From: Spiroplasma endosymbiont of Panorpa germanica
GTDB taxonomy: Bacteria; Bacillota_I; Bacilli_A; Mycoplasmatales; Mycoplasmataceae
Length of the DNA: 64,000 nt
Assembly: GCF_964019765.1 (NCBI RefSeq)
Contig: NZ_OZ026461.1
Coordinates: 620,001 to 684,000 of the forward strand
Direction: 5' to 3'
The position numbers and the translations under genes are program-made. Positions 6,660 through 62,675 of this stretch are shown in pieces. Positions within the stretch are counted from its first letter, which is position 1; each line of letters starts with the position of its first letter. Under the pieces are notes generated by a model that was not told the origin of the DNA, searched no databases, and saw only the letters and a program-made list of their open reading frames with translations.

Positions 6660-7352
6660 CTATTCCTCTTTTTTCTTATCGGTTTTTTTATCTTCGATTT
6701 TTTTCTTAGTATTTTTGACTTCGGGTTCAAGTGCTTCGCTGTCTACTTGAGATTTTTGTGAATTTATCATTTCCTCTTCTAGACGTTTATTTTCTTTTGA
6801 CTCCTTGATAAATCCTGCAATTGTTGCAGGGAAAGCCACCACAACAAAGTAAACCACAGCAACATTAACTCATAAATCAGCAATATTGAAAATATAACCA
6901 TCACTTCCTAGAAAGCTAAAATCTCAGACTAGAAAATCAACAACTCCACCTTTAATACCACTACCTGGTACTGCTGGGGCTCATGCTCGAGCTAGTAAAT
7001 TAGCTCAGCTACCTGCTAACAAAATTGTAATTCCTATTAATCAAAAACGATCATTTACAAAAACAAAAATTAATGACATTATCAGGGTTACCAGCGTGGC
7101 TATTGTAATCGCCAAACCGACATTATCAGAGTTCATTCCATAAGCTGCACCCGGGTTTATTATGTAGTGAAGTTTTAAAAATCCAGGGATTAAACTACCT
7201 TGTTCATTATATGACATTTTGGCCACGACTATTCCTTTTGTAATTCAGTCGATGGCAACCAAAGAAGCAAAAATTGGTAAACAAACTATTAGTTTAAATT
7301 TTCATTCATAGTTATGCTTAACTAAATATGTTTTAAAATTTTGAAAAAACAA
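6660..7352 (-). CDS. lspA: lipoprotein signal peptidase (signal peptidase II)
   Basis: Aspartic protease that removes signal peptides from prolipoproteins in the membrane, which matters here because the window encodes two lipoproteins. The 230-residue product has four membrane segments, the N-x-G-A-A-Y motif at residues 66-71, and the two catalytic aspartates in GGVVDF (Asp140) and FNIADLWVN (Asp160). The start is most likely the TTG at 7352, 7 bases after a strong AAGGAGG; a second in-frame TTG at 7358 is too close to that site. The C-terminus has an unusual 50-residue Lys/Glu-rich tail. The gene follows ileS by 21 bases. Confidence 0.93.
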
Positions 7353-7373
7353 ACTCAATACCTCCTTGAAAAT

Positions 7374-10097
<2,724 letters not shown>

Positions 10098-10720: not shown

Positions 10721-11746
10721 CTATTCTTTTTTATTATTCCTACTTTTATCATTTTTGTCAATATCAAATTTAACTTTATAATTAATTGAGCGCATTTTTA
10801 CACGATAAACTCTGATTTCGAGTTCACGAGTTTTATTAATAGCCTCTAAAGTTTGCAAATCAGAAATTCCTTTAATTTCATCGATGTATTTCAATCCGCG
10901 AGCTTTAAACGATCTAAAGCCAGTTGCTTCAATTTGATGAAAACGATTCGTTCAAATAAAATTAATCAGAATTATCAAGGTAAAAACTATAATCATTATG
11001 ATTGTTACTAAATATGGGATTCATAATTGCCCATTAAAACCAAAATCCACAGATCATTTCAGCTCTGAACCACTATAAAAATCATATTTCATATTGGGAG
11101 CGTTAACTCATGCTGCTTGAAGGACATTAATCATATATCGATGTGGTATGAAATATAACAAGATCTTTAATCACTCATATTGAATAATTAGGTGATATGG
11201 GAAACCCAAACCTAAAAGATAAGTAATAAAGAAATAAAGCAAGGTTGCTATTGCCAATATCACTTGTTGAGATTTAAAGGCAATATAAATAACATAGCTC
11301 AATAAGATTGAAATAAGTCAAATTAAAAATAAACCTGTTAATAGCATTGCTCAATTAATTTGAGATAAGTACTCTCTTTGTTCGACAAAAAATATTTGTC
11401 CAATTCCAAAAACCAACAAAGTTACAAACATACAGTTAAATAGATTAAATGAAAATATCGCAAAGAACTTAATCGAATTAGGAATTGGTGAGTTATCTAA
11501 ACGTGTGCTAAATCCCTTAATTCTTCAATCCGAAATGGTTCTCAAAAATGTGCTAATAGAGTTTCTAGCAATTCCAACAGCCACAGCGGAAATCAATAAG
11601 AACGGATCATCTTGTTTAAAAGATAGCCAAATAATCAGGGTCAGAATTGTTACTCCAATTCCTAGAGAGATATTAACATAACCTTTTAGTCAGTTTTTTC
11701 ATTGGAGTCGATAAAGAATTAAAATTGTTATAAAATTGTTTCTCAT
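10721..11746 (-). CDS. ABC-type transporter membrane subunit (second of a tandem pair)
   Basis: A 341-residue integral membrane protein with about six hydrophobic segments and a charged, basic C-terminal tail of around 60 residues. It aligns along its length with the protein encoded immediately upstream: shared elements include a first segment ending in IxWLxFK, a conserved RNS block, the FGIG segment, PHRYxxNxxQAxW and IWIPYLVT. The pair is therefore a tandem duplication that has diverged. The start codon shares its A with the upstream stop. The adjacent ATPase gene (12739-14019) suggests an exporter in which the two proteins form a heterodimeric pore. The substrate is unknown. Confidence 0.7.
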
Positions 11747-12723
11747 TATCTTGGACCCCCTTTGAATGGCTTGGGAGGTTCGCCAATTTTCTCAGCCGTT
11801 TTTCTACCTGAATCAATATTTTCAATTTCTTGAATGCTTCTAGCTTCTTTAAAACGATAAATACGGTTTAGATGTTTGTGAATTCCCGGATAACCTTTAA
11901 ATCTTTTGGCATTATACGAAAACCTTTTATAAAAAATTATTGAAATTCAAATTCCTGAGATTAATATTAACAATCCAGTAACTAAGTATGGGATTCAGAT
12001 TTGATTCAAATATCCAAAACCATTTTTAGCAAATGTTCCATCCCCCATTGGATAGGACATCGTGGTGTCTCCGATTCATCCCGCTTGCATTAAATTTAGA
12101 ACATATCGGTGCGGGAAAAAGTAGGTTATGATATTTAAAGTGTCATTTGAGTTAATTAAATAATAAGGAACTCCTAATCCTAACATGTACATTGGAATGA
12201 AGTAAAATCAGACAAATATTGAAATTATCACTTCGTTATTTTTAAAACTAAAAGCCACAATAATTGCAATCAAATTTGATAATATAATCATTAGAAATAA
12301 TGAGCTAATAAAAATTAATCAATTAACATTTTTTAACAACAAACGTTGCTCAGGAAATAACATCCCGATTCCAAATAGTAAAAAAATTACCATAAAGTTC
12401 ATTACAAAATTAAAACTCAAAAGCGAAAATACTAAAACCCTTTTTGAAATTGGTGTTAGCAAGAAGGCTTTTACTAGATGTTTGTTGTTGAAATCATTTA
12501 TCGTACGTCCAAAATTATACAGCGAGTTTCTAATTACAGCAATCCCGATGGCTGATGCTAGTAAAAATCTATCAGTTTCCACACCTTTATTTTTAAACAT
12601 CAATCAGCAAATTAGGGTAAAAGTCGTTAAAACAACTCCCAAAACAATATTTGTAATATCTGTTCAATAATTATGAAATTGAATTTTTCAAAGTTTTTTA
12701 AAAATTATTCAATTTTTCTTCAT
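11746..12723 (-). CDS. ABC-type transporter membrane subunit (first of a tandem pair)
   Basis: A 325-residue membrane protein with about six hydrophobic segments, resembling ABC-2 type exporter permeases. The C-terminus is basic and proline-containing (EPPKPFKGGPR). The ATG at 12723 follows GAGGGAATTTTT and lies 15 bases after the ATPase stop, so the ATPase and both permeases are co-transcribed. Residues around FFPHRYVLNLMQAGW recur in the next gene. Several Trp codons are TGA. Assignment to the exporter family rests on the neighbours and topology rather than on a catalytic motif. Confidence 0.7.
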
Positions 12724-12738
12724 AAAAATTCCCTCTAA

Positions 12739-14019
12739 CTATTTTAAATTACGTTTAAACTTCTTGTAATTTCGTCTTTCAATTTTGATGGTTTTTAATT
12801 CTTTGCGAATATATTTTTGTTTCATTTTTTCCAATTCGCTTTGTTGTACATTAATATTTAAAAGTTGTTTCTTTTTGCCTCCAAAAATAATTTCATTATT
12901 TCTAAAGATTGATTTAATATTGTTATTTAAGTATTCTAAGAATTGTTTAATTTCTTTTTCAATTTTTTTTAGTTTCTGGAACTGTGAATTTCGCTTAGCA
13001 AATTTCTTAATTTTTTTTAGCTCAACTTTTGCTTTCTTATTATTTAATTTAATGAGTCTTCTAACTGCAATTACATTTTCTTTTTCCAAACTCTCATTTG
13101 ACAACTCCACGATTTTATTATTTATCTCGTCGAAGTAAAATAAAGTATTCTCCACAAAAATTTCATAAGAACTCTCTTTAACAAATGGATATTTCTCAAA
13201 GATTTTTTCAATTTGTTTTTTCAAGCTAACTATTTTATTATTATAATCTTTTAAAATTGGTTTAAAGAATGGATCTGGTTTAGGCTTGATAATTTTAGAA
13301 CTAATTTCATTGCTAATTTTTTTAATGTAGTTGGCAGCTGATAAGTAATTTTGCTCCAAGTCAAAGATGCTACGGTCATCAATTATGTGTCCATCATTTA
13401 GAAAAATAACTCTTGAGGCATACTGATCAATGAAATCATGGTCTGGTGAAACTATAATCAAGGTTCCGTTATAATTTTTTACAAAACTTTCAAAAAATTC
13501 AAAAATTCTTGTTCTAAAATTATAACCAATCGATGAGGAAATTTCATCCACCACTACCAATTCTGGTTTGTGAAAAAAGGCTAAAAATAAACTAAACATT
13601 TGCAAGTTAACAACGCTTAATTTAGACAAGGCTTTATTTAAAAAAGCATTGATTTCAAAAACCTCAATCAAAGTTTGAACTCAAACTTCATCTTCAATTG
13701 CGAAAATATTTCTATACAAATCAATAATATCTTTAGTGATGAAACCACTTGGTCAATTTTGATCGCGAAATTGAATTCCTACAGATTCAAAAACTGAATC
13801 TTGAGTGAAATAATAATCAATAAATCCCGCACTCTGAACCAGATTATTGGCAATAATGCTTGCCAAAACACTTTTACCACTACCATTAGCTCCCAAAAAA
13901 GCAACGATTTCATTTTGATAAATTTTTAGATTAATTTTTTTTAAGGCCCAAGCACCCTTCTTAAAAATTTTAGAGACGTTGTTTAATTCTACTAAAATGC
14001 TTTTTTCGTTTTCTTTCAT
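12739..14019 (-). CDS. ABC transporter ATPase with degenerate motifs and long basic C-terminal extension
   Basis: Residues 1-220 are an ABC ATPase domain. Walker A GANGSGKS (43-50) and Walker B VVVDE (155-159, with catalytic Glu159) are intact and a Q-loop is present (GIQFRDQ). The signature that should read LSGGQ is LSVVN (134-138), and the switch region reads SPDHD, with Pro192 where the usual His sits. After the ATPase domain come about 200 residues rich in Lys, Glu and Ile, probably a coiled coil. It drives, or formerly drove, the permease pair immediately downstream. The start ATG at 14019 has a GGAG site and lies 21 bases after the hydrolase stop. Confidence 0.75.
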
Positions 14020-23150: not shown

Positions 23151-24203
23151 CTAGTTACCAAAAAAATGAAATTGATTCAAAAATCTCACATCATTTTCAT
23201 AAAAATCTCTAATATTTGAAATACCATATTTTAGCATAGCGATTCTCTCAACACCAACTCCAAAAGCCAGAGCTGTATTTTTTTGCGGATTAATTCCGTT
23301 AAGTTTTAAAACACTTTCGTTAAAAATTCCTGACCCTAGAATTTCAATTCATCCTGAATTTTTACATAATTTGCAGCCTTTACCTTCACATTTAAAGCAA
23401 CTTAAATCTACTTCTGCACTTGGTTCGGTGAAAGGAAAATAACTTGGTCTCATTCTAATATTAACTTTCTCACCAAATAGACGCTTACATAAGTACTGTA
23501 AAATTCATTTTAAATTAGAAAATGAGATTTTTGGACCAATTAAAAAAGCATCGATTTGCATAAATTGATGCGAATGAGTGGCATCATCCACGTCACGACG
23601 ATAAACGTTACCAAAACTAACAGAACCGTGTTGTTTGCTATCTGGTCCGGTTTTTGCTAGTTCACTTAAAACACGAGAAGACATATTAGTACAATGAGTT
23701 CTTAAAACTTGATTTTCGTTTACATAGAAAGTGTCTTGCATATCTCTTGCTGGATGTCCTTCTGGTAAATTCAATCTTTGAAAATTATACTCATCTGATT
23801 CAAACTCTGTTCCGTCAACCATTTCAAAGCCTAACTCTGAAAAAATCTGGCTCAATTCCTCAATTACTAGATTTAAAGGGTGTTTTGATCCAAAATTAAA
23901 ATCTAGTCCTGGTAATGAAACATCAATTTTTTCAGCACTCAATTTAGTTTTTAATTCTTCTTGGTTAAACTTTTCTTGCAAAGTGTTTAATGACTCGATA
24001 ATTTCAGTCTTAATTTCATTAGCGAGTTTTCCAGCTTTTTGACGTACTTCTGCATCCACATTTCTCAAATCCTGTAAAATAGCGTTTAATGGTGAATTTT
24101 TACCCATGAACTCTTTTTTTAACTCTTCAACATCGTCCTTTGTTAGTGAACTAGTTATCTTATTCTTAAAAATTTCTTGTAATTCTTTTAACTTGTCTAA
24201 CAT
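23151..24203 (-). CDS. pheS: phenylalanyl-tRNA synthetase alpha subunit
   Basis: Catalytic subunit of PheRS, class II synthetase, 350 residues. An N-terminal coiled coil (residues 1-90) is followed by the catalytic core with motif 1, motif 2 ([17 protein letters not shown]) and motif 3 ([13 protein letters not shown]), plus [10 protein letters not shown]-type segments. A Cys-rich insertion ([17 protein letters not shown]) lies between motifs 2 and 3 and could bind zinc. The ATG at 24203 follows TAAGGAGA. It starts the pheS-pheT-yceD-rpmF transcript. No T-box leader precedes it, unlike ileS. Confidence 0.97.
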
Positions 24204-24250
24204 GTGATTTCTCCTTAAATAATATATTATCATTTAAAATATATTATATA

Positions 24251-24279
24251 AAGCAATTAAATGATTTATTTAATTGCTT
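24251..24279 (-). terminator. intrinsic terminator at the end of the FtsX operon
   Basis: AAGCAATTAAAT (24251-24262) pairs perfectly with 24268-24279, 5-base loop. On the minus strand it is followed by a T/A-rich tail. The upstream arm contains the last codons of the 198-residue gene, so coding and terminator overlap. Confidence 0.75.
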
Positions 24280-24862
24280 TAATTTTATCTTGAATTTTTA
24301 ATATAGCCTTTTTTTGTACTTCTATTAGATTTCCGAATTCTGCTTCTTCTGGTTGAATTTTTTGCAGTTTTTTTATAATTTTAATTACATGTAATATGTA
24401 ATTGTTTTCTAGTTTCAAGCGCCCAACTTCATAGTAAACATCTATGTCCACTTCGCGACCTGAAATTATGATATTTTCATGGTTAATGTTATGAAAAATT
24501 CACTTTAAAAAAGTCAGATTAATAAAATTTTTAATCTGACTGTATGTGTATATCAAAAAGTCTTTATAATAATTTAATTGATCATCAAACAAGGTCATTT
24601 CATTAATCATTTTGACTCCAATTTGGTAATAATTTTGATTTAAAGCTCTTAAATCCACTAGTTTTACTTCTATTTCATCGATAAATACATTTCCAAATTT
24701 ACAATTTAAATCTTTTTCAAGATACGTAACTAAATTGGGCAGATTAAAAATATTAAAATAGTCTTCGTAAGGTCAACGCATTTGAAATTTATTATAATTA
24801 ATTTTGATATTTTTTTGCATAAACTTATTTACAATATCATGGTGAAAATCTAAAAAATTCAT
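24266..24862 (-). CDS. hypothetical 198-residue protein, last gene of the FtsX operon
   Basis: No family recognised. The protein is AT-rich in codon use, has many Asn, Ile, Lys and Tyr, no signal peptide and no clear membrane segment, and a predicted helical C-terminus (EVQKKAILKIQDKIKAIK). The ATG at 24862 has a good ribosome site (GGAGG, 8 bases before). It lies 18 bases after the stop of the upstream FtsX gene, so it belongs to the same transcript and may assist the permeases; that is inference from position only. Confidence 0.6.
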
Positions 24863-24880
24863 TTCTAATACCTCCAATTT

Positions 24881-27800
24881 TTAATTTAAGACGTTGACAA
24901 TCGGTTCTTTTCTAACCTTAAGATTAGCTGTTAATCATCCAAAAAAACCAACAAGACTTAAAGCTGAAAATGTAATTAATGGTGCTCAAAAACTTCAAGG
25001 AAATTCCATTAACACTTTAGAAGAACTTCACGAAATGCTGATAACAATTTTTCAAACAATTAGGGAGAAAATATAAGATATCAAAAAAGCTATGATTGAG
25101 TAAATGACATAGTTACCCATAACAATTCAATTGACTTCCCAATCTTTATACCCAAAAGCCTTCATTACTGTAATTATATTTCTAGAACTATCTATTACAA
25201 TGCTCATAATAACAATGAAAAGAATTACTAATAACAGCGAATTTAGTACCATAAAAATCGTCATCATTGAATTGATTTGAGACATCTGAGTTTTAGCAAA
25301 ATCCCTGGTTAATCTTAAATATGACATTCTAGAATTCAAAATCTTCTCTGTTAGACTCGGGTTTGTTAACAAATCCGGTTCCTTAAATATTGAATTTTCA
25401 ACACCAAATAGTTTATCTAAATCAATGATATCTTTAAATCAAAATCCCAAAATCGGAGCATCTAATTTAGAGTTAATAGCAATTGTATCAGTTGTTAGAT
25501 TAATATTTAAAAAAGTTTGTGATAAATCGGCATTATCGATATTACCTTTATAAATTTCTTTTTGAGAATACAAGCGATTTTTAATGACCACACTATTTTC
25601 AGAATTTGGATTTAGAACTCCTTGAGAATTTACTTCAAAGAAAGTATCGTAGTCAGCAAACATTGTATCAGTATAAGTATTTGCCAAGTTTATGTCCACA
25701 ACTTTAAGTCTAACAATTCCCGTAAAGCCAGGACTTGTTCTTGGTGCTGCTAAAAAAGTATCACCAACCGATAAATTATACTTCATTGCAAAAAGCTTTG
25801 AAATAATTACTTTTGTCTCGTAAATGTTATCATAACCACTGTTTTTCATTTTGTTTAAGTTATTCGAGTTAGTTAACCTAATTCTTCAGGAATTTTGGAA
25901 ATCTCCATATTGATTTTCAAAATCAACTAATTCCAAGTTATTTAAAGGTAAATCTTTTTGGAATAAAGGTTTAACTCCCATACTATATGATAAATTCTCA
26001 TATTTTTGATTATAAAATATTTTATTATCGGTCACAATGGTCTCAGAATTATTTTCACTTGAAAATGCTGCTGCTAATAAAATTCTGGATTTTTGGGATA
26101 TGTTATTTGATTGAATATCCATCATTTCATTATTTACTTGGATTTTAAAAGCATTTCGACTAATATCTCTGGTGAAAATATTTTGATAATTTTTTATACT
26201 TTCATCAATACCATTACGGATCAATTTTATGGCAAGCTCTTGACTTAAACCCTTATTTGTCAGTTTTTGATAAATTTCATTAGCTTGTTTTATTGTACTA
26301 TTTTGATAATACATTAGCATAAAAATTGTTTTAAAATCTTTAAGTTTAAAATTACTAGATTTATTATCTATTTTTTTGTTAGTGTAAAACATAATTGTTT
26401 TCTCTAAATCCGATTCATTTGTGATTAATGGGATGTTTTCGAATTTATCTGAGTCTTTTAACTTAGTAATATCAGCTTTTAAGAGTTTTTCAATGCTTGT
26501 TCCAATATTTTCCCACGGTTCTGTAGACAGACCTTTGATGATCATTTCATCACTTAACAAGTTATGACTATCTTTTAAAATGGAATTTAAAGTCATCTCC
26601 GTTATTAATGAAATTTTTTCTTGAAAGTCATCACTATTTTCATCAATCACTTGACCAAAGTTTTTTGAATCATAACCAATAAATTCTATCTTATTTTTTA
26701 AATAGCTTTCTTCATCTTCTAATTGATAACCAGTTTGGTTATTTCAAATAATATTGGGCTGTGAATCAAATTGATAAAAATGGTCAAGGTTTTGATTGTA
26801 AGGATTAGTATAACGATTATAATTTTGACTAATAAGATCCTTAGAACCCATTTGAAATAAGAAAAGCAATGATGAGATTGAAAAAAGTGATATTGTAACA
26901 AGAAATTTCCCTCTTGATCTTTGAGTAAAAGCGGCTCTTAATCGATAATTAAACCCAATTCCTTTTTGATACAAAATCTGATTAATTTTTGAGGAAATAA
27001 GTTGGGTTAAAAATACCGGGAAAATAATATAGCTTCAAATTTTTTGTCCTTTTTTTAATTCTTTAATTCGAGCTGTATTATTTATTAATTCCATTGTTGG
27101 ACGATTTAAAAAATTACAAATTAAGCAATAGCTTAAAAGTGAAAATACTGCTGGAATTACAATAAATAAAAGTGTCAAGAATCAAAAACTATAGTAAATG
27201 GGTTGGACATAAAATAAAATCTGGCTTGCAAAAACTTGCAATACTAAACCTTGCACTGGCAAGGAAATTAAATAACCTACTAAAATACCCACAAATAAGG
27301 TAATTCAAACCTTAATTACAAATACTCACGCTAATTGTAGATTGCTATAGCCGCTGGCTTTAAAAATTCCCAACTGACGCAAGGAATCGTTTATCTCCTT
27401 ATTTATTAAAAAATTAATAAATAAAAATGCTAACGTCAGAACCACAATGGCTATGATTATAAATAATATTGCCTCAATTTTACTTAAAATATTGTTAATG
27501 ACATATCAATTATCATTAAATTTTATTAAGACATCATTTACGTTTATTCAAATTGGGTTTTCACCATTAGAATCACTATACTGACTCTCTACACTAAATG
27601 ATTTATCCTGTTTTTTGATTAATGAAACATTATTTAAATTATGAATTTTTTGAGATTGGTTTTCTCAGAAGTTAAAGTAGATACTGTCAAAATCTTTGCT
27701 ATTTAAATACGCAAAAAAATAGTTACTACTATTTTTTCAATTTGAATAATAATTTTCTCCTGGCGATAAAGATTCAATTGTAGATCCAAAACCCACTACC

Positions 27801-28693
27801 TCGTAATCTATATCAAACATTTTATTATCTTTAAATCCATAAGGTAATTTTATTTGATCTCCGATACTTATGTGATTTTTTTTAGCATATAAGTCAGTAA
27901 TCATAACTTCAGGTTTTGTCACATTAAATTCAGGTAGTCTACCTGAACTCACAACTACATTACCCAATTGTTCAGAATTTTTATCCGAAATTCGACGAGT
28001 TTCAATAACTCTACCTTTTGAATTTAGTATTGGTCTTTCTTCGAAACACATTGATGGATTAAATGAAATTTTCATTTTATCCTTTAGTTCATCTCTAATA
28101 TACAATTGTTTTTGTAAAAACAATTGTACGCTAGCAAAATTATCACTTTCACTTCCTATTTGTTTTTGAAAATCAGCAGAAAGAATCTCGCCATAAGTTA
28201 AATTCCTATCTTCTTGAAAATGTTGAATTGATGTTTCAATTTTCAGACCATCTCTACAGGATCTCAATATACCCATTGTGTTGTTCAAAATTGCTGTGAA
28301 ACTACTAGATTTTAGATTTTCCATGCTAATTGGGGTATCGCTATCAACTTCTCCGATTTGGTGATGCAAGGACCTGTAAAATAAAGGTGTGAAAAAACCG
28401 GAATCTTGATTTGGTTGCTGCAAATTAATTTCATCATTAACTTGATAGTTTTTATGAGAATAGAAATAATTGAATAAAAAGTCTGAAGAAAAAGAATTAT
28501 AGTCATTATCAAATTGTAAATCTCATTTATTTGACTTACTTTCAACATTTGATATTTTATTAGCAACTTGAACGGATGGCGCCAAAAGACCTACTGAAAC
28601 AATTGTCAATAAGACGGTAAAGATTATGCTACCAAAAGATTCAATTCATGACTTAAAAAATGTCTTTAAATAACTTTTAATTATTTTATTCAC
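24881..28693 (-). CDS. large FtsX-type permease, paralog A
   Basis: A 1270-residue protein built of two FtsX/MacB-like halves. The first membrane helix (residues about 17-40) is followed by a roughly 300-residue outside domain with the GxxxEVMITDLYAKKNxIxIGDQI pattern, then three membrane helices ending in RQLGIFKASGYSN. A second half starts FNYRLRAAFTQRSRGKF and ends with three more helices containing VMKAFGYKDWEVN. The start is GTG at 28693, 7 bases after GGTGA; no ATG is available at a ribosome site. It lies 17 bases after paralog B, so the two are co-transcribed. The ATPase partner is not in the locus. Substrate unknown; MacB/LolC-type relatives move lipoproteins or peptides. Confidence 0.8.
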
Positions 28694-28710
28694 TAAATTT
28701 CACCTTTTTT

Positions 28711-31700
28711 CTAATTAGTTATTGTTACTATACTTTGTCCTTTAATTTTTATGAAACTAGAAATTCAACCACACCCAATTAATATAGCTAAAATTCCCAG
28801 GGTTGCTAATGGAATTATAAAACTAATGTGATAACCAATCAGAGCTCCCATTGATTTTCATGCAAATATACTAAAGATGTAAGATAGCATCGATGAAATT
28901 AAGTAGCTTATTCAGAAAATAATAAAACCTCAGACAAAATAATCACCAAGCACAATTCAGTTTACTTGAAAAATATTATAACCAATTGACTTCAAAGTCA
29001 AGATAATCATGGTAGATTCATCAACAATTACCAGAACCAAGACAATCATAACTATGGCTAAAATCGTGATAATCATAAATGAAACAATGTTCATTATAAC
29101 TGTCAGGTTTCTAACAAATCATTCACCCATTTTGGCTTCTGCATAATATAAATTTGTATAATTACCAGAAGAACTAAGATTTAAGGGATCTGTTAACAAG
29201 TATGGTTTTTTGTTAAAAATCTCATTATTTTCAAGTAAGTCTAAATCAATAAAGTCACTAAATATCGAACCAAAAATTGTGGATTGTTCATCAGTTAATA
29301 ATGTTAAACTTTTGGCCGTCAGTTTCGAATTTAAAATGAAATCTTTTTCTTCAAAATCAGCAAATTGAAATAGTGATTTCGAAGACAATAATCCATTATT
29401 TAATTTTACATCGCTTTGATTTAAAGAATCATCACCAAATTCATCAAAGAATCGGTCATAATCAACAATAAAATCATGTGAATAGATATCATCATTATTA
29501 ATCGCTGCAACTTCAATTGGTATAATTACTTTATTCTTTGTTTTCAAAACAATTTTAAAGGAATCACCCTTTTTTAAATTAAAACTTTTAGCAGTCAATT
29601 TACTTATGATAGCTTTGACACCATGATTTTGTTCAGATTTTAATGATAAATTATTTCAATCCGTTTTTGAAAGGCTTTTATCATTAATTGAATTTGAGTA
29701 AGACTCATTACTTTCCCTGTCTGAATTTGTTAAAATTAGATTCATATCGATGCTTTGAGAAACATTGTATGGATTAGCGTTAAAAGTATAAGTCAAAACT
29801 TCTTTATTTTGATTTACCATTAATTGATTGCTCGTAACAATAGTTTGATAATTATTTTTTTCTAGCATCGCTAGTTGCATTATTTCTTTTGAATATAAAC
29901 TTGCGTTCTCTCAATTATCAAGTAACGTGTCGCCTTGAATTCTAGAATAATTGCTTTTCAAAATTAAATCCAAAATTCATGAACTCCACAAATCCTTGTT
30001 ATTACAATTTATATTTTGATACTTGATGTAGTTATCCAGAAAGATTCGAGTTTCTTTTAAGGCTATTTCTGGATCCCGATTTTTTAAAAGCTCAGAATAA
30101 AAATCATTTGCTTCTTGTTTTAGAATTTCACGTTCAATTAACAAGCAAGAAGTTATTCCAACATCTTCTAAATAAAAGTTATTAGAAAATCCCTCATTAT
30201 TTATTGATTTCAATAAGAACAAGGTACTTCTAAGATTATTAATATCCTTAATCGATACTTTTTCAATCTCCTTAATATCGATTGGTTTTCTTATATCAAT
30301 TTTTTCAACATTTCCCAGAAGCAAAGTTGAAATTATATTAGCGTTGTTCAGGCTAGGATCTAAAATTTCCTTATCACTGACGATAAATTCACTATTTTTA
30401 AAAGCCTCTTTGTTTAAAGCTCTTAATAGTCATCTGATTTGATCACTTGAATTAGTACTGTTCTTGTTCAATGCTTTTTTAAATTTGGCTTCATCTTTGT
30501 ATCCGTTAATAGTCAAAGGAGTTTTTTCATAGACTTCCGGATTGGACCAAGTAAGTTTCTGGCTTTTTTCATCGAAATCAACCTGTTGATAATCTCTAAA
30601 TTCAAAGGAATGATCAACTCCCTTAACAAACTTGTTACCTCTAACTGGTTGTAAATCATTTGAAATTACTCGCACCTGAAACTGCATAATTAATACTATG
30701 CTAGAAACTGTAAATAAAGTCATAATTAAAACGAACTTTCCTATGGAATTACTTGTGAATGCTCGACGCAATCTTCAATTAAATCCAATATTTCGTCTCT
30801 CCAAAAATCGACAATATTGAAGTGAGAGAGTTTGAATTATAAAAATTGGAAAGATAATTATTGAAATGACTTTTCAAAATTTAATACCTTTTTTTTCAAT
30901 CGAGTTGCCGTTTGATATCATTGATAAGATATTTTTGTTCACAGTTTTTCAAATTAATAAGAATGAAATGGCACTAAAAAATAATGGAACCATCACTCAG
31001 ATAACGATTAAGAATAACCAATCAGTATAAAACTGATCGATAAAGAACATGATATTACGTTCAAAAGATTTAAATCCTAGCATTTGCAAAGGCAACGAAA
31101 GGAAATAACCAAAAAATATCCCTATTGCCATTAAAATAAATGTTTTAATTGAAAAAATCAATGCAAAGCTTGAATTACTGTAACCAAACGCTTTGAAAAT
31201 ACCAATTTGCGATCGATTTTCATTTATCTCTTTTTTGATTAAAAATGTGATAAAAATAAACGCAAGCGATATAACTAGTAACCCTAAAAAGATATTCATA
31301 ATAACTTGAACTTTTACATTAGTAAGAACTTCTTGATTTGCGTAATTAGAAAAGGGTTTAAATTCAATTTTGTCAAAATCATAAATTCCAAATTCATCTA
31401 AATATTTGATTTTGAAAATCTCATTTATATTTGCATCATTTGTTTTAAAATTCAAAAATTTTTTCAAAGAAAGTCTTTGACCTTGAATTCTAGTATTTTC
31501 CCAGCGTTGATCTTCGATAAGTTGAATATTTTCATCGTTTACATATCCATAACCAAATTTTTTATGATCTCTACCTGAGCTAGCAAAGTCTCCAGAGGTT
31601 GCCAAATCCTCTTGTTTAATACCAATACCCACCACAGTTCATTCCTGACTTGTTGGATAACCTTCGCTTCAGTCAGTAAGCAAGTTAATTTTGGATCCTA

Positions 31701-32538
31701 TTGTTAAATTTTGAAGTCGGGCAAACTTGTCGGTTAAAACAATTTCTTTTTTATCAGTGCTATTTGAGTCCACGTTTCTACCATGTTGAATTACCACTTC
31801 AGAGATTTGTTTTCCATTTAAAGTATTATATTCCCTTTTAGAAGCGTTTCTCATGTAAAAGATATTTTTCTCACCAATTCTAAAATCTTGATTTTGAGCA
31901 ATTGATAACTCATGTCCTCAAGATAAATGAACCTTGTCCCTATTAAGACTGTTTCTAGCAATTTGATGAGCAATTCACAAGGAAATGTCGCGACTATAGT
32001 AAATATTTTCACTGTTGGCCCCAGTTAAAAGTTTCATGAAATCTAAGCTAAAAATCTCATTGCCCTTAAGGAAGCCATCGTCATCACTAATAGAAGAATT
32101 TGAATTTGATCCTTGAGAAAAATCAGATATCGCTTTTCTAATTTCACTAGCAACATCTATATTGACATTATTTTTGATATTTATTGAATTATTATTAACA
32201 TTATTAAGAACCGTTCTCATTCTTGGGCTGAAGAAATCATAGTTTTCATCATCACTGGGAAGAGCTAAAAACTCAACTTCACCCTCCATAATTGCTTCTT
32301 TTTGATAGAAATAGTGATATAAAAAATCATCACTAAATGAATTAGCATTTTGATTTAGATAAGTATCCCATGTATTAGTTTTGTTGGCAATCTGACTTGT
32401 TCGATATTGAATTTGTAAAGAAGTGGTCATTGTTCCAATTGCCATTGCACTTAGTATAATTAAAAAAAATATTGCTCCAATCATTTGAATATATCTTTTT
32501 TTAAATGATCTTAGGTAATTTAATAGAATCTTTCTCAT
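28711..32538 (-). CDS. large FtsX-type permease, paralog B
   Basis: Second of three paralogs, 1275 residues, same two-half architecture: N-terminal helix (MIGAIFFLIILSAMAIGTM), outside domain with HGRN...EIVLTDKFARLQNLTIGSKI, three membrane helices with SQIGIFKAFGYSN, then FNWRLRRAFTSNSIGKF and a second outside domain before the C-terminal helices. Outside domains are Asn/Ser-rich and little conserved among the three, whereas membrane parts are similar. Start at 32538, because the promoter at 32555-32582 places the transcript start near 32548, excluding the ATG codons at 32550 and 32571; GGTGA precedes the chosen ATG. Confidence 0.8.
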
Positions 32539-32554
32539 TTTTTTCACCATTATT

Positions 32555-32582
32555 ATTATAGACTTTTGCAAGAATATATCAA
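32555..32582 (-). promoter_or_regulatory. promoter for FtsX paralogs B and A
   Basis: Minus strand: TTGATA (32577-32582), 16-base spacer, TATAAT (32555-32560). It sits between the terminator of paralog C and the start of paralog B, so B, A and the 198-residue gene form a separate operon. Confidence 0.75.
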
Positions 32583-32590
32583 ATAAAAAA

Positions 32591-32620
32591 GTTAATAAGA
32601 ATTTTATAATTCTTATTAAC
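32591..32620 (-). terminator. intrinsic terminator after FtsX paralog C
   Basis: GTTAATAAGAATT and AATTCTTATTAAC with a 4-base loop, six T following on the minus strand. It includes the stop codon of paralog C. Confidence 0.85.
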
Positions 32621-35600
32621 TATACGATGTTATATTTGTTAATGGTCGGTTTGATATTTTTAGCATTGCTGTAATTCAACCTACAATTATAATAACAGAC
32701 AAGATTGAGAATGATATTATCGGAGTTTGTCAGTCGGTTGGGAATGGAATTAAAATTCCAAATGACTGTCACACAAATTCGAGAATAGCAGTTCAAACTA
32801 TAATTGAAAGTACATATGATATTAAGAAACCAATTAGAGTTCAAATGATATAATTTCCCATAACAACTCAGTTAATTTCTCCCGCTTTATAACCAAGAGC
32901 TCTCATAGTCAAGATAATATTGGCAGCTTCATCTACAACAATATTCATAATTACTACCAAAATAATGGTTAGCAAGAAGGCTACAAGTAAGATAAATAAG
33001 GTCATTAGAACTGTTGAACGAGCCAGAACAGTGTCCAAAGTGGCTGTCATTAAATCAAGTGGCAAGTTTGCAGCATTTTCTGTTTGGAATAACAAACTTC
33101 CGTTAGTAATAACACTAAACTGGTTTTCTCCTCCAGCTTTTGTGTTATAAGTTCCACCTGGCAATATTCCTTCAAATAAACTTCCAAAAATTGGTGCATT
33201 TTTACCCGTGGCTAATGCAATGCTTTGACCTGCAAATTGAAGATTTGCGATTGAAGATCCGATGTTATCAATATCAATACTTCCATTAAATAAACGGTTT
33301 TTAGATCAAATTGAGTTACCATAAACAAAACCGTTATTGTAATCTTTTAAGACCTGATTATTTTCTTCATCGGCTTCAAAGGCTTTGAAATAGTTTTCAT
33401 ATGAAGCTATGATTAAAGTCCCAAAAGCATTTGATTGATTAATTCCTGAAACCTTGATTGTTAACGGTTGTTTTCTAGTTGTGTTTGTACGAACCTTAAA
33501 TTCACTACCAACTGAAAGATTTAATAATTTAGCAATTCGATATGAAACAATAGCATTAATTTTTGTTGGGTCTGAATTAGTGTTTCTAATTTCATTATAC
33601 TGACTGTCACTAACACCACTAAAACGGTAGATATCTTGGGTTCTACCTAAACTGCTTTTAAAGTAATCTAGTTCTAAATCAAATTTTTGAGAATTTAAAT
33701 CATCCACTAAAACATCGGTTTTATATTGCAATAATTCCTTGTCAGATTCAATATATATTTGATTTGGAGTAACAATCGCTTTTTGATCAAACTGAGCTGA
33801 AAGCGATGTTCCAATTACTGCTGTAACATCTTGAGGAAGTCCCGCTAAAATGTTCATGTTAGCTGATTGAGTTGAGCTCATTGTTAGGTTTTCTAGGTTA
33901 TTGCAATCACTAACTTCACCTGAAACAGCACTTGTAAGCAAGCAAACCGTTTTAGCAACATCACTTAAGTAGTAGTTGTTGTTCTTACCTTCTGCATCCT
34001 CAAAAGTGGCCCCCATTATTGTTTCTGATGGTTTATCTGTTAGAAAATTAGCGACAATACCTTCTAAAGTATCTTCTTCTTGAATTTTATCATCTGTAAC
34101 ATCCACATTGTAATAGGCTCCTAGAGCTAGTTTAGGATTTATTTTATTTTTATTATCAAAAGCATCCTTGGCTAGAACTTCAATCACATGAGAAACATTA
34201 TCTCTAAAGTTGGTTGAGTTGGCTTTAAGAGAAGTTTTAATATCACCTTTAAAACCGATGTATTCAGTACGCATTGAATCTCAATTAGTATTAACTACTT
34301 CAACTTTTCCAGCTTCTGAATCACTGTTTTGAGAATTGTCTTTAAAGTCAATCTCTGGTAGTTTTTTTCAAGTATAACGGTGATCAACCCCATCTTGAAC
34401 CATTTCATAACCTTGGCTAATTGCTGAACCCATTACAGCCTTAGCACCAAGTTGAAGAGTAAATAGTAAAGCCGAGAATGAGAAAATCATTATAACCATA
34501 ATGAATTTACCCTTACTTCGAGCAGTAAATGATTGTTGTAACCTTCAAGTAAATCCGCGGTTGTGATAGCTAAGTGATTGAGAAATCTTTGTTAGAATTA
34601 AACTTGTCAATCCCACGGGGAAGAAAATCCATTTCATTGTAGTTTTAAATTTTGATTTAGTTGGAATTTTAGCTCCATTGGTAATTAGTCTTAATGCCGA
34701 TTCACTTAAGTATTTTAAAGTTAATAAGTAAGAAATAATTGTGAATAGCAGCGGAATGACAATAAAGATCACACTAGCAAATCAAGGTGAGAAATAAACA
34801 TCACTAAATGCATAAGTAACACTGTTGTTAAATTGTCCAGAAACATAAATTTGTAGCGGGATTGATATTATATAACCAGCTATTACCCCGATTGCAATTG
34901 TGATTAACATTTTTGTTGCAAAAATTCACGAAAGCTCAGAATTCTTATATCCAAATGCTTTGAAAATTCCCAATTGAACTCTGGTATTATTAATTTCTTT
35001 TTTAATAACGAAGTTTATGAAGATAAAGGCTAGAACTAAAACAATAACTGCTAGAACTAAGAAAATTATTACCTGGATTCTAATATTACTTAATGCTTGA
35101 ATTGTTGGATAATCGTACTGAGCTGTGATGAAGTTTTCCCCTTCACGATAAATTGAATCTGATTGCAAGAAATTAATTGCAAAAAGATTGAAGACATTAA
35201 CATTAGGTACTAAATTTTTAGTACGCATAATCATATTAAAGCCACTTTCTCAGTTTTTTTCATTAGCTCATGATTCACTTCTAAGTTGGTCTAAGTATTC
35301 ATAACTTACAAAACCATATGTATAGTCATTGGGGTTTGATCTAATAATTGAATAGTTTGAACTTGGAGTTAAGGTGTCAAATTTTGTTCCATAACCCACA
35401 ACTTCCATTTGGTTGTTCATATTCCCAGTAACAGGAATTACAATTTTATCACCAATTTTGATTTTATTAGTTTTGGCATATTTTTCAGTTAGAACAATTT
35501 CGTCCAAAGTCCCTTTTGAAACATTTCTCCCTTTTGTAATAATTAATTGATTGATTTCTTGGCCATTAACTTTTTGACTATCATCACTGTACGCTTGACG

Positions 35601-36224
35601 CAAATCAATTTCCATATTTTTGGTTGACCCAATTGATGATTTAAAGAATGCTGATAATTCATAACTCAAAGCAATTTTATTTTCATTATTTGCGATTACT
35701 TGACTCACAATAAAAAAGTTAATGTCGTTGTAGTAATCATTTGTTAAGATATCTTGGAATTCATCTACAAAGATTTTTTTAGTGTTAAAACCGCTAACTT
35801 CAACATCCCCACCTTTATCATAGGCGTTAAAAAGGGCACGGATTTCTCTTCCTAAATCAGCAGTTTTTTGATCAGCTTCGTTATAAAAATCTTTTAAGTG
35901 TTCACGGACCTCAGCACTAAACAACGTTCCACCATTTGCTAAAGGATTGGCAATAATGGTTGAATCCTCAGTTTTATAATCCTCACCCAAATAAAAGAAC
36001 GAATATAAAAATTGATCGTTCAAATAGTTTGATTTTGGTGTAATATAATTTTCTCAGTGGTTAGTTTGGTTTTCAACTTGTTTATTTTTACTTGTAAGTT
36101 GTAGTGGTGTTGCTACCATCCCAACAACAACTGCTGTTAGTGTCAAAACAAAGATAATTGTACCAAATGTTTCAACTCAGGCTTTTACAAACGATTTTAA
36201 ATAACTTTTCAGTACTTTTCTCAT
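32616..36224 (-). CDS. large FtsX-type permease, paralog C
   Basis: 1202 residues with about eight membrane segments: one near 17-40, then the first FtsX block (about 385-407 followed by two more, with RVQLGIFKAFGYKNSELS), one at the start of the second half, and a final block (1071-1094 and two more, with MRALGYKAGEIN). The outside domains span about 45-380 and 590-1060. Shared motifs with paralogs A and B: KGRNVxxxxxxEIVLTEKYAK and FTWRLQQSFTARSKGKF. Start ATG at 36224, preceded by AGAAGGAAC. It is transcribed separately from B and A, with its own promoter and terminator. No ATP-binding domain is present, so an ABC ATPase encoded elsewhere must be its motor. Confidence 0.82.
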
Positions 36225-36274: not shown

Positions 36275-36291
36275 TTGATATATTATATCAA
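36275..36291 (-). promoter_or_regulatory. 17-base perfect palindrome over the -10 box of FtsX paralog C
   Basis: TTGATATATTATATCAA is an exact 8+1+8 palindrome and contains the TATAAT (36282-36287) expected to be the -10 of paralog C. Such a site could be an operator for a dimeric repressor, or may be a chance AT-rich palindrome. Confidence 0.45.
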
Positions 36292-36331
36292 CTAATTATC
36301 ACAAATGAGATTTTATTTAAAGTTTCTAAAA

Positions 36332-36363
36332 AAAATAGAATCATTAATAAATAATTCTATTTT
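36332..36363 (-). terminator. intrinsic terminator after nrdG
   Basis: AAAATAGAAT (36332-36341) pairs with ATTCTATTTT (36354-36363); eight T follow on the minus strand. It overlaps the nrdG stop. Confidence 0.8.
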
Positions 36364-36859
36364 AATGTTTTTTCAATCATTCTTTAGTATCGATTAAGCG
36401 TTGATTACTGCTTCCTCGATAGCTTAATTCTGGATCATATAGTTCCTTTACTCAGCGACCATCAACCAAAGTGTCGATATGAGATAAAATCTCAAAGCGA
36501 GCCTTTGTTTCTGGGTTTTCATTTCTACTGTTATAAATTTCTTCAATTGTGAAACCTGTGTAAAGTCAAATATTTAAGTCAGTTTCTTTTTTGATGACCT
36601 TAATTAAATCCAATACTTCAACTGCGGAAAACATAGGATCTCCTCCCGAAAAAGTTACCCCATTTAACAAGGGATTGGCTTTTAGGTCTGTAATTATTTG
36701 GTTTTGATAATCTAGGTCAAAATCTCGTCCTACCTTAAAGCTTCAACTTCTCAAGTTGTGACAGCCTTTACAAGCGTGCAAACATCCCGAAACATAAATT
36801 GAATATCTTCAACCGGGTCCATCACTAATTGTCTCTTTAAATATCTTAAGAATCTTCAT
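36362..36859 (-). CDS. nrdG: anaerobic ribonucleotide reductase activating enzyme
   Basis: Radical-SAM enzyme that makes the glycyl radical on NrdD. The 165-residue protein has the Cys-x3-Cys-x2-Cys motif that binds the [4Fe-4S] cluster (Cys26, Cys30, Cys33 in GCLHACKGCH) and TFSGGDPMF. The start ATG at 36859 lies inside the end of nrdD, overlapping by 14 bases, so it depends on nrdD translation. It needs an Fe-S cluster, supplied here by the SUF operon at 53-58 kb. Trp codons include TGA. Confidence 0.95.
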
Positions 36860-58010: not shown

Positions 58011-60203
58011 ATGAAGAGATTATTAAGCATTCTAAGTTCAGTCGCTTTATTAAGTGGAGCTGCTGGAACAGTGGTTGCTTGTACTAGCAAATTTGACAAA
58101 AAGAAGGATGGAAACTCGATTTTAGCATTTTTAACAATTAACGGGAATAAGGTTTCAGTTGATTCAAGTGATGTTTTAATGGAAATGATTAATGAGTCAG
58201 GACCAAGTAATCGTAACAAATTCATTCTAGATATTTTAAAAATCTTAAATACATCTTTTTTTGTTAACGCTGAAGAATTTGGGAAATCAGGGGAAGTGGA
58301 TGAAAAAGCCGCTACATCAACAGAATACCAAAATTTTGATTTAGTTAATCAACTAAAAGAATCTTATGAAGAGATTAAAAGCGAGGCAGAACGTCAAATT
58401 TCAGAAGAAAGAAAGAAATATAAAGATGATTTTGGTAAAAACGCAACCAAAAAATGATATGAATCGCTAGAAAAAAAATTCAAAGGTATTAAAGATCGTG
58501 ACGAATTGGATGCTAAATACTTCCAAAGCGTAATCATCGGAGGTAATAAAAATACCACTTCAGAAATGTTGAATATCTTGTTAAATAATAATCAATTATC
58601 TTATACATTTAAAAACCGAATTGATATTATTAACCAAGAATTATTGGATTTAAGAGTTTACACTAAGAATGGTAAATCTGTTGAGGATTATTACAAAGAT
58701 AGCGCTAAAAAAGACAAAGTTTTAATTCTTTGAAATGCTAGTGGTAAAACAAGTGATAAATTTGCCTCAAGTTTAGAAGATTTTAGTGCCTCAGATTTTG
58801 CTGGTCATTTTGACTTAGAAAAATCAGATAGTGAGCTTGTAGTTCAAAATGCACCGACAAACACAAAAGCTTATGCTAAAAACACAACAGCTCGTGGTAT
58901 GATTTCAAACTCACAAAAATTTTTCCTTGATAAATACTATAACTACCAAAAACCTGTTGCTTTAACAGAGATCACCTTCCCTTTTGAAACAAATCAAAAA
59001 CTAGATGATGGAATCACTCCTGCAGATTTTGGTTTAGAATCTGGTAAAGAAACTGAGTTGGGAAGAAATATTGAAACTTTCTTAACAAAAGACACAAATG
59101 CAAGTTTGAAATACTGAGATGATGCTTTAGATGCCCAAATCCCAAGTGGAACAGCTAAAAGATTCGAAAATCTTTTAACACTTGATGGAGATTCAACAAC
59201 TTTCTCAAATACATTAAGAAGTTCAGTTTATGATTATTTAACAACAGCTAGTAGCGGAACTGCACCATCTTCGGGATCAGCTCTTGTAGATAGCATTAAC
59301 CGTACAACTAATGGTAAAGTTTATTCGGTTGTTGGAGATGGGATCATTTCATTTGTCGAATCTGATGGGCTTCACTTCGTTCGTGTTGAAGGAATTAAGG
59401 AATTTAAAGCTTCTGGGGGAACTTGAAGTTCTGCTAAAGGTGATAATGGACCAGGGACTAGCGATGCTGAGCTTGCTTTATTTGATGATTTTTGAAATAA
59501 CAAAAATGATAGCGAAAGAATCGCTGCAATGCAAAATACCGATAGCGCCACTTACAAAGGGTTAAATTCAAACCTTAACAACCCCTATTTAAAATACTTA
59601 GTTAATACTTCATTAACTAAGGGAATTACTGGATCAAAAACAGCTTATGATTTAATGACACAATTGAAAAACTTTGTAAAAGTTGAGGAACCATCATCTG
59701 GGGAAGGAACTTATGTTTGATGAACTTCTATTTTAGAGTATTACGAATACATGTTAGGAGCTCCTTCAACAAGTTCACCTCAAGAATATAATGAAAAATT
59801 CTTGAGCAAATTTGTAACATTCGGAGAAGAAGGTTCAGAAACTCCTCAAAATGATATTGCATTAAAAATGCAAAACTGATTTATCAGTCATATTGGTTCA
59901 GCTAAATCAACTGTTGCTGGAACCCCACTAACAACTCATGCAGAAAATCACAAAGCTTGAGTTAAATCAATTAAAGCTGGAAAAGCATCTAATACTGGTT
60001 ATCCAGAAGGATATGTTCCAGAAAATATTGATAAAATTATTGGTATTAAACAATTTGATTTACCATCAAATATGACTTCATCTGGGGCAAGTGGTTCAAG
60101 TTTAAAAACTATGAACGATGCTCAAGGATATTTAACAAGAAAAGACTTTGATATTTTCTACAATAATAATAGCTATGCTGTAGTTTTAGGAGGTAAGAGA
60201 TAA
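58011..60203 (+). CDS. surface lipoprotein 1
   Basis: 730 residues. A positively charged start (MKRLL), a hydrophobic stretch and the lipobox VVAC with Cys24 make it a clear prolipoprotein, processed by LspA and anchored outside. The body is rich in Ser, Thr, Asn, Lys and Gly with several Trp (all TGA); no catalytic motif is evident. The start at 58011 follows GAGGGAG. The stop shares its A with the next lipoprotein start at 60203 (TAATG). Such large lipoproteins are common surface antigens in mollicutes. Confidence 0.88.
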
Positions 60204-61828
60204 TGAAGAAATTATTAGTAATACTTGGTTCTGTAAGTCTCTTGACTTCAACTAGTGCAACAGTTGTAGCCTGTAATGCCAACAGTAGAATAACTGAGGC
60301 AACTTTAAATGATAAAATCCTAAGATCACTTTTAGCTTCTGTTTTTGGAGACAAACACGCAGCAGCGATGGATTTTGGAGACATCTTCAATAGTGGTGAT
60401 TTACAATCTTCACTTATTAATATAATTAACCGTATGATTGCTCAAAATAACTATTTTAGAGCTACAAATAATTTATACGACAGTCTAGGTTTAGGTAAAA
60501 ATACCGAAGAAGTTGCTTTTAGAAACTACCAAACTTTAAATAACTCAATCGCTACAGACAAACTTTACACAGACTATACAAAAAGTATTTCAGGAGCTGC
60601 AACAACCCAAGCTTTGGATTATAGTATTCGTCGACAAAGTTATTCGCTAAACGCTCAAGATTTAAAATTAGAAGTTGGTGGTGAAGAAAAAGTTTATGCC
60701 AATGTTGGGGTAAAATTACCAGATGGTAAACTTTGATCTATTCGTAATGAATTAGCAACATCAGATTATAGTGAATCAATTCCAACCGCTAAAACTTTAA
60801 GTGGAGACGGGTTTTCATTAGTTGATATTTCAGAGGGAACTTCATCTCCTAAAGCAATCGCAGGTTATGATAATTTAACTGGTAAAGAGGCCTTGAAATA
60901 TCGTTTCAAAGATTGATTTGAAAATGAAATTCAAAGTAAAATTATTGAAAATTTATTATCAATTTCAAGACAAATTCCTGAAGCCTTTCGTGTTGCTGCT
61001 GGTCCAGAAAGCAATAAAAAAACTGCATACTTTAACAGATATTCAGCAATCGGAAAATATTCACAAACATGAAATAATTCAAGTACCCCTTGAACCAGTA
61101 ATATTAAAATGGTTTGAGAATTTACTGTCAAAAATACCAACTTTGGTAAAGTTAAAACTGCTTTAGAAAGTCTTGATATCGACCAGAATTCTGGAGTAAT
61201 TAAATCTGATAAAAATATCGCTGATAACATCGCAAAATTTAATACAGCCATTGGAGATGCTAACTTGTCTGAAGATGGAAACGATCCTTACTTTAGCCAA
61301 CCTGGTTTCAAAGGTTTTATTAGTATTAAAGATGGAGAAATCTATGGAACTAACAACTTAGCAACAGACTTTACTTACAAAACTAGTTTAGTTAACGCAA
61401 GTGAACCTGGGGTAATTGGGGAAAATGGTCACCTTTACTTCCAAGGAGCTAAAAGTGATGAAATTTCTGTTGTATTTGTTCTACCAGTTTATCTAATTCA
61501 GCTACTTCAAGATTATGAAATTCAACGTGATCCCGAAGGTGAAGCAGTTAAGTTAAACCTTGGTCCAAGTATTTCATCACCAAATCAATATCAAGATGTT
61601 TGAAATCAAGAACAAAATCTTAAAAAACATAGTAAAGATATTGAAGAATTAGATGCTAATTTGAAACAAGATATGATTAATCAATTCCACTACATAGTTT
61701 CACAAAATGAAGATGTTCTAAAAGAATCAAAAACTTCTTTATATTCGATTTATTTAGATGCTGACGATATCCTTTATTCAGGACTTTGAGATTCAATTAG
61801 TAAATATATAAAAGATGAGGATGAATAG
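60203..61828 (+). CDS. surface lipoprotein 2
   Basis: 541 residues, signal MKKLLVILGSVSLL with lipobox VVAC and Cys24, the same pattern as lipoprotein 1, suggesting a common origin of the two. The body is polar, Ser/Asn/Thr-rich; five or more Trp are encoded by TGA. The start codon is inside the TAATG overlap, so both are made from one mRNA. A GGAGG sequence lies within the end of lipoprotein 1, which probably serves as its ribosome site. Function unknown. Confidence 0.87.
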
Positions 61829-61850
61829 ATTCTCAAATAACTATCAAATC

Positions 61851-61884
61851 AAAAACTGTCAAGAATTTATTGACAGTTTTTTTT
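61851..61884 (+). terminator. intrinsic terminator after lipoprotein 2
   Basis: AACTGTCAA and TTGACAGTT flank a 7-base loop, with seven or more T following on the plus strand. Confidence 0.9.
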
Positions 61885-61951
61885 ACCCCATTTTGGATCC
61901 CAAAATATATCATACTTTTTTAAACTTAACTACTTTTATGAAATTTGTTGA

Positions 61952-61957
61952 TATAAT
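61952..61957 (+). promoter_or_regulatory. -10 box of the small membrane-protein gene
   Basis: TATAAT 35 bases before the start at 61992. A -35 box is not obvious. Confidence 0.5.
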
Positions 61958-61991
61958 TAATTTTAGATACATTTCCCGGAGGCAGTCAGCA

Positions 61992-62675
61992 ATGAAAAAA
62001 ATCAATTTTAACAAAATCTTTTGCCTAAGTTTATTTTTACTACACTTCTTTGTTTTGATTGTTACGTTTTGAAACTTGTTTTATCCAAATAAAGAGTGAG
62101 TTTTTATTTTACAAGTATCGTTAACAGTCTCATTAATTCAAACACTTTTAATGTTCTTGATTTACCTTTCATATAAATTACTTTTAAAACGCAAAGTGAT
62201 TTTACAAAAAGCTAATTCATACAAATGATATAAAAATAGCAAGCCTGAAGAATTGAAAAGCATGTTAAAAATAGTGCTTCCCTCTTTTCTAATAATTCAA
62301 GGAGAAACAGCTTCAATTATGAACGAAGTTGTTCGTGATACTTTTTTTGCTGCTGTTTATTCTTTTGTAATTGTTAGTTTCTTTATAATGTGTTTGTTAT
62401 TTTTAATTATCGCCATTATTTCAATAAATGACTTAAAAATCAACTGTGTAACCAAGAGAATTTTTAAAATGATGCTGCGTTTAAAAAATGGTTCATTATC
62501 ATTTTTTAAGGGCTTAAAAGTCAAAATAGCTGACGCTTTAATTATCAAGATTTACAATGAATCTATTGATATATTCATGGAAAATTATCGCAATGATGAT
62601 TTATTAATAATTAATCAAATTTATACTGAAAAACTAAACGACTTGAAAAAAACTTTGGAGTTTAGAGGATTTTAA
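61992..62675 (+). CDS. small multi-pass membrane protein, unknown function
   Basis: 227 residues, three to four hydrophobic segments (about 10-28, 38-60 and 118-140) and a mostly helical, basic C-terminal part (residues 145-227). No family recognised. The start ATG at 61992 follows CGGAGGCAG at a normal distance. It is between the lipoprotein terminator and the fused ABC gene. It may be a partner of one of these; inference only. Four TGA-coded Trp, including NLFYPNKEW. Confidence 0.65.

Follow-up and report, generated by a model that had tools for sequence, protein, structure and literature searches.

What drives three giant FtsX-type permeases that are encoded side by side, with no ABC ATPase gene next to them, in the genome of the Spiroplasma endosymbiont of Panorpa germanica? 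The window analysed here, the whole stretch of 64,000 nucleotides from positions 620,001 to 684,000 of contig NZ_OZ026461.1, belongs to a genome made up of a single 1.054-Mb contig in which TGA codes for Trp. Open reading frames were read with code 4 (Mycoplasma/Spiroplasma); calling with table 11 was rejected, as it broke up the genes and code 4 is required. Read in this way, positions 24266-36224 of the minus strand carry C, B, A and a small gene as full-length open frames, followed by pheS:

32616-36224, minus strand: permease C, 1202 aa, recognized by its open frame in code 4, two PF02687 stretches and hydropathy
28711-32538, minus strand: permease B, 1275 aa from an ATG or 1286 aa from an upstream TTG, with the architecture of C
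24881-28693, minus strand: permease A, 1270 aa, with the architecture of C, sister of B
24266-24862, minus strand: small gene, 198 aa, or 203 aa from a TTG
23151-24233, minus strand: pheS, the conserved downstream neighbour that marks the ancestral locus

The array is flanked by pheS and pheT downstream and by nrdG, nrdD and an rRNA operon upstream, and among the flanking genes examined none adjoining it codes for an ABC ATPase. An earlier note, made from the letters of the window, had described three paralogous giant FtsX permeases of 1270, 1275 and 1202 residues with no ATPase beside them, and both statements hold: each protein has its code 4 frame and two PF02687 stretches, and the three are 28-32% identical to one another. 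Elsewhere in the window, at 58011-62675 of the plus strand, three consecutive genes (730, 541 and 286 aa) have no Pfam match, and two mreB-like genes lie side by side elsewhere in the genome. This pair, taken with the relatives in Mesoplasma and Spiroplasma described below, indicates a Mollicute from the Spiroplasma/Entomoplasma group, probably a Spiroplasma.

By sequence and by modelled fold, each of A, B and C is a fused double ABC permease of type VII (MacB/LolCE/BceB/YbbP). The two PF02687 (FtsX) stretches in each of them (E 3e-24, 7e-15 and 1e-24) score 55-87 bits, above the curated cut-off of 25.5 that we used to recognize a type VII permease. Hydropathy predicts about eight transmembrane (TM) segments per protein, TM1 and TM5 each being followed by an outer domain, and one weak additional hydrophobic stretch that passes the threshold in B only. 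A coupling-helix motif lies between TM2 and TM3, with two such motifs per protein, so that hydropathy and motif positions together give the type VII topology, in which TM1 is followed by a large outer domain and by TM2-4, with the coupling helix between TM2 and TM3. For permease C, encoded on the minus strand, the layout in residues is:

~15-45: TM1
46-373: outer domain 1
374-510: FtsX1, with TM2-4
511-600: linker and TM5
601-1060: outer domain 2
1061-1202: FtsX2, with TM6-8

The IFKAFGY motif, which the earlier note had listed among the membrane blocks shared by the three paralogs, is indeed present, twice per protein, but it is the coupling helix of the FtsX domain and as such a general signature of the permease class; the genome's five giant permeases (A, B, C and two others encoded elsewhere, D and E) all keep it. 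An AlphaFold2 model of C is of low confidence (pLDDT 52) and poor in the outer domains, and its fold matches therefore count as supporting evidence only: in a Foldseek search of the PDB the first 30 matches were all type VII permeases, among them BceB (the top match), YbbP (1114 alignment columns), LolC/LolE, YtrF and HrtB, and the model also matched the isolated periplasmic domains of LolC/LolE. A PDB sequence search with a permease profile returned chance matches only. With two FtsX halves, their coupling helices and type VII fold matches, each protein resembles LolC and LolE joined in one chain, its plan being nearest to that of YbbP apart from the number of TM segments (about 8 against 10).

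The genome-wide search for a MacB/LolD-type ATPase that the earlier note had proposed returned one protein:

G000:C1:17747-18685 (G000 being the present genome), between hslO-like and dus-like genes: ATPase of the LolD/MacB/BceA class, 312 aa

In the scan with the LolD model this protein scores 204 bits, followed by PotA at 146 bits. In NCBIfam it fits best the models DevA, MacB, LolD, L_ocin_972, YbbA, DarD and FtsE; its best PDB matches by sequence are BceA (top), MacB and MJ0796, and it has intact Walker A/B, signature and H-loop motifs. Such class-specific matches together with intact motifs place it in the MacB/LolD/BceA class. Since it falls under every equivalog cut-off (204 vs 308 bits for LolD), this is a class assignment only and names no equivalog. 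By the LolD scan and NCBIfam, it is the only LolD/MacB/FtsE/BceA-class ATPase of the genome. The phrase "without an ATPase" in the earlier note is thus right for the locus but not for the genome, which encodes one ATPase of the MacB/LolD class that in some relatives stands beside homologous permeases.

Across 40 Mollicute genomes, our own included, an ortholog of the 312-aa ATPase (E<=1e-60) is found in 39 (38 of the 39 relatives), at 45-94% identity and in a single copy in every genome that has it, except for G028, with an extra fragment. FtsX domains, counted in 24 genomes, number 6-17 per genome. Over the same 40 genomes the LolD model matches once in 32, twice in six and three times in one, with nothing in one incomplete genome, so that no more than seven have a second LolD-class ATPase; of the six genomes with two, at least five have the second directly beside FtsX matches of its own (in G006, the ATPase at 274487-275101 and FtsX at 275328), and from their position these are ordinary separate pairs. 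In G009 and S. poulsonii the ortholog itself has a C-type permease as neighbour (adjoining or a few genes apart); it is near D-type permeases in G032, G027 and G028 (there as a second, partial copy), and near a giant permease at the main copy of G028, in G005, in G015 and, at a distance of three genes, in G024 (E-type). In its own genus it is linked to no FtsX permease, and it is also unlinked in most of the other genomes inspected. The presence of one ATPase ortholog beside different permease types in different lineages suggests a single motor shared by all giant permeases. In G028 the second, truncated copy of the ATPase gene (L082:4452-5378) adjoins the D-type giant permease, and the full copy is near the contig start. 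The ATPase-linked C-type permease of S. poulsonii (L118:9983-14402) is split over two frames, with transposase-like genes between permease and ATPase, and looks decayed. In our window, at positions 10721-14019, a gene for an ABC ATPase of 426 aa precedes two genes for proteins (325 and 341 aa) with no Pfam match; the three are possibly an undescribed ABC system.

Other genera of the family share the order permease-(198-aa gene)-pheS-pheT, and in S. phoeniceum the permease gene is followed by pheS and pheT without the small gene. The comparison of related genomes that the earlier note had called for found the array, with its order kept, in both same-genus genomes, and thus in three genomes of the genus, and a permease-pheST locus in other genera; among the genomes inspected, three tandem copies at pheST occur only in this genus. 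In the tree, A and B are sisters (99/98), A, B and C form a clade (82/93), and each of the three is monophyletic across the three species, which makes both duplications older than these species. Gene order and tree together point to a triplication specific to this genus, at a widely conserved locus with the order permease-(198-aa gene)-pheS-pheT: the ancestral permease gene upstream of pheST would have undergone two local duplications ahead of the split of the three sampled species, after which A and B would have outpaced C. A scan of the genome contigs with C alone gave no matches; with a 20-row alignment, the contig search detected relatives in Mesoplasma and Spiroplasma. A plasmid search gave zero matches. 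In G014, three tandem genes for giant FtsX permeases of 1170-1185 aa occupy L217:4201-15040, and on G015:C1, at about 794-806 kb, six FtsX domains follow one another, as known from match coordinates only. Other tandem arrays of giant permeases in the family, such as the three genes of G014, indicate that local expansion is a habit of the family.

The three copies evolve at different rates. In the two same-genus genomes the orthologs of C are 68-73% identical to the copy here, those of A 53-54% and those of B 46-47%; C is the slowest, at a rate similar to that of D and E, and A and B are faster throughout. The earlier note had taken the membrane parts to be more conserved than the outside parts, and the same orthologs agree with it: 88-98% identity in the membrane parts vs 54-65% in the outer domains for C, 59-75% vs 42-57% for A, and 56-82% vs 38-53% for B. 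Its suggestion of a surface system "under selection" fared less well, dN/dS being below 0.4 in every domain; as dS is 0.5-2.6 or not computable, and so at or near saturation, only the direction of the contrast between membrane and outer parts is to be trusted. From these alignments, the outer domains are under relaxed purifying selection, and the values give no evidence of positive selection.

In the explanation that we favour, and consider probable, A, B and C, as fused double permeases, are driven in trans by one shared, distant ATPase, work by mechanotransmission and arose by local duplications. Direct support exists for gene structure and domain content, for the ATPase being unique and conserved, for synteny and the history of duplication, and for purifying selection. 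Each chain would form an internal pseudo-dimer of two FtsX units, both made of four helices and bearing a large extracellular domain. Dimers of the 312-aa ATPase would energize A, B and C in trans by binding to the two cytoplasmic coupling helices, and ATP binding and hydrolysis would move the outer domains, the mechanotransmission seen in LolCDE and YbbAP. The substrate would likely be membrane-anchored or hydrophobic, perhaps a lipoprotein or a lipid, and would be extracted from the outer leaflet of the cell's single membrane or presented there. Because the membrane parts of A and B are less conserved than those of C, coupling could be weakened in these two proteins. Somewhat less firmly, we think it likely that a single ATPase of the LolD/MacB class energizes all giant double-FtsX permeases in most Mollicutes of the group, one motor with many heads. 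To the same degree we expect that each giant permease would then carry a fast-evolving extracellular head of its own, and that the system would, by lineage, include the FtsX-like permeases of JCVI-syn3.0.

It is improbable, in our opinion, that A, B and C use no ATPase of this class and are structural or adhesive surface proteins that have kept the FtsX fold and lost energization. The missing linkage to an ATPase in their own genus would be accounted for, as would the fast-diverging outer domains that make up most of each protein and the membrane parts of A and B, just 56-82% conserved among orthologs; however, the coupling-helix motifs are retained in each of the genome's five giant permeases, conservation is in every case higher in the membrane than in the outer parts, and the 312-aa ATPase persists with no other obvious client in the genome. 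Pairing of A, B and C with other ABC ATPases, perhaps a different one for each permease, seems very unlikely: only one protein of the genome scores as LolD/MacB class, the two other high scorers of the LolD scan that were classified belong to the PotA and PstB systems, and the second LolD-class ATPase of relatives mostly lies beside its own FtsX matches, even if about 45 further ABC_tran matches, several with "DEPTANLD" motifs, offer candidates. Host-driven diversifying selection on a surface-antigen system, finally, would make the outer domains the most divergent parts, as they are; yet no domain reaches a dN/dS of 0.4 (dS being saturated) and the order of the array is conserved in three genomes of the genus, and we give this reading very little credence.

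The array probably forms two transcripts, as judged from predicted signals, one with C alone and one with B, A and the 198-aa gene:

36325-36365, minus strand: terminator hairpin of nrdG, upstream of C, A/T-rich (-11.2 kcal/mol, z -4.9)
36275-36291, minus strand: perfect 17-bp palindrome TTGATATAATATATCAA containing the extended -10 of C
32582-32615, minus strand: intrinsic terminator of C, an A/T-rich stem followed by T6 (-13 kcal/mol, z -4.2)
32555-32582, minus strand: promoter-like site before B, TTGATA-16-TATAAT, with 11/12 matches to sigma-70 and the best of the region, a consensus match only

This agrees with the earlier note, which had read the array as two transcripts and given C its own promoter and terminator: a terminator of C, here an A/T-rich hairpin with T6, is predicted in all three genomes of the genus, the extended -10 of C is conserved, and a promoter-like site precedes B. 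The hairpins of the C-B gap in the two same-genus genomes are at the same place and have different stem sequences; a simple terminator scan missed the C terminator because it requires three G-C pairs. The palindrome is kept in the three genomes (with one mismatch in one) and occurs once in the genome, allowing up to 1 mismatch; possibly, it is an operator over the extended -10 of C. The 32-nt gap between the 198-aa gene and pheS has no T-run terminator, and the B-A-198-aa transcript may therefore run on into pheST.

The earlier note had also proposed a role in lipoprotein or peptide handling. When all giant permeases are considered, lipoprotein genes are found at 33 of 163 positions at +-1, against 27 of 461 at +-3 to 5 (p 6e-7), and once relatives are clustered the effect is weak, at 22/62 against 16/83 (p 0.036). 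This excess in the wider family favours the proposal, but nothing at the locus does: no lipoprotein gene lies beside A, B or C, whose clusters contribute zero to the count. Lipoprotein handling by A, B and C is plausible by analogy, from their fold and from weak synteny elsewhere in the family. The giant double-FtsX permease D (1370 aa) is followed directly by three lipoprotein genes (L017:5746-13031 in G000; also L077 and L079), an order kept in two same-genus genomes, and in G023 a D-type permease is followed by one. The fifth giant double-FtsX permease, E, has 1715 aa (L018:709-5856 in G000), and its relative adjoins a large (750-810 aa) lipoprotein gene in G001, G002 and G024. In the window, at 6660-10097, an ileS-like gene for a class I tRNA synthetase is followed immediately by lspA, for signal peptidase II, as is usual. 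The 198-aa protein, whose gene is conserved between permease and pheS in related genera, is predicted to be mostly helical, has no predicted TM segment and gave an AlphaFold2 model of mostly helices with a pLDDT of 78. Against the PDB, the fold search yielded nothing at E<=0.001 and the sequence search nothing better than E 0.26, and Pfam gave no consistent match. As a conserved neighbour that is probably cytoplasmic, it could be an accessory subunit; its absence from S. phoeniceum means that it is not essential for the locus.

Giant permeases of Mollicutes with two FtsX domains are already known (PMC3053259), as are the FtsX-like permeases of JCVI-syn3.0 (PMC6629657), and substrate-unknown FtsX-like permeases are among the genes kept in this minimal cell (PMC6629657). 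The open-access literature searched contains no statement of a triplicated pheST-linked array or of one ATPase for all. If one ATPase does serve them all, depletion of a single gene would reveal the job of the whole permease family, and the puzzle of the missing ATPase in annotations of FtsX-like permeases would vanish.

Among known systems, ADOP (TIGR03434) also has a duplicated FtsX permease, and is called "orphan" in that no ATPase neighbours it; the resemblance goes no further, membership being rejected at 18.9 bits against a cut-off of 622.3. LolC and LolE are separate chains of about 400 aa that work with LolD. Like A, B and C they are built of FtsX units with four TM segments and carry a large extracytoplasmic domain behind TM1, they are among the fold matches of C, and LolD resembles the 312-aa ATPase (204 bits); unlike them, LolC and LolE are not joined, and a Mollicute has no outer membrane. 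Equivalog membership in LolCDE was rejected (9.2 vs 362 bits for LolCE, 204 vs 308 bits for LolD). BceAB, like the arrangement proposed here, combines a fused permease with a separate ATPase, and BceB and BceA are the top matches of the C model and of the 312-aa ATPase, respectively; BceB differs in having 10 TM segments and one extracellular domain (PMC5985334). The permeases of Mycoplasma mycoides, of 1773-1796 aa and with two FtsX domains in one chain (PMC3053259), and those retained by JCVI-syn3.0, MMSYN1_0034/0399/0531/0639, of unknown role (PMC6629657), belong to the same lineage as A, B and C, a likeness drawn by description and not residue by residue; the two papers describe no pheST-linked triplication (PMC3053259, PMC6629657). 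YbbAP(-TesA), a type VII ABC system of E. coli (PMC12646458; for topology also PMC5985334), includes the closest whole-length fold match of the C model, YbbP, over 1114 columns. YbbP has about 800 residues, 10 TM segments (two of them linking helices) and its own ATPase, YbbA, whereas A, B and C have 1200-1275 residues, about eight TM segments and no linked ATPase. Like A, B and C, however, it unites two FtsX units and two periplasmic domains in one chain, and, as we propose for them, a separate ATPase protein binds its two coupling helices (PMC12646458).
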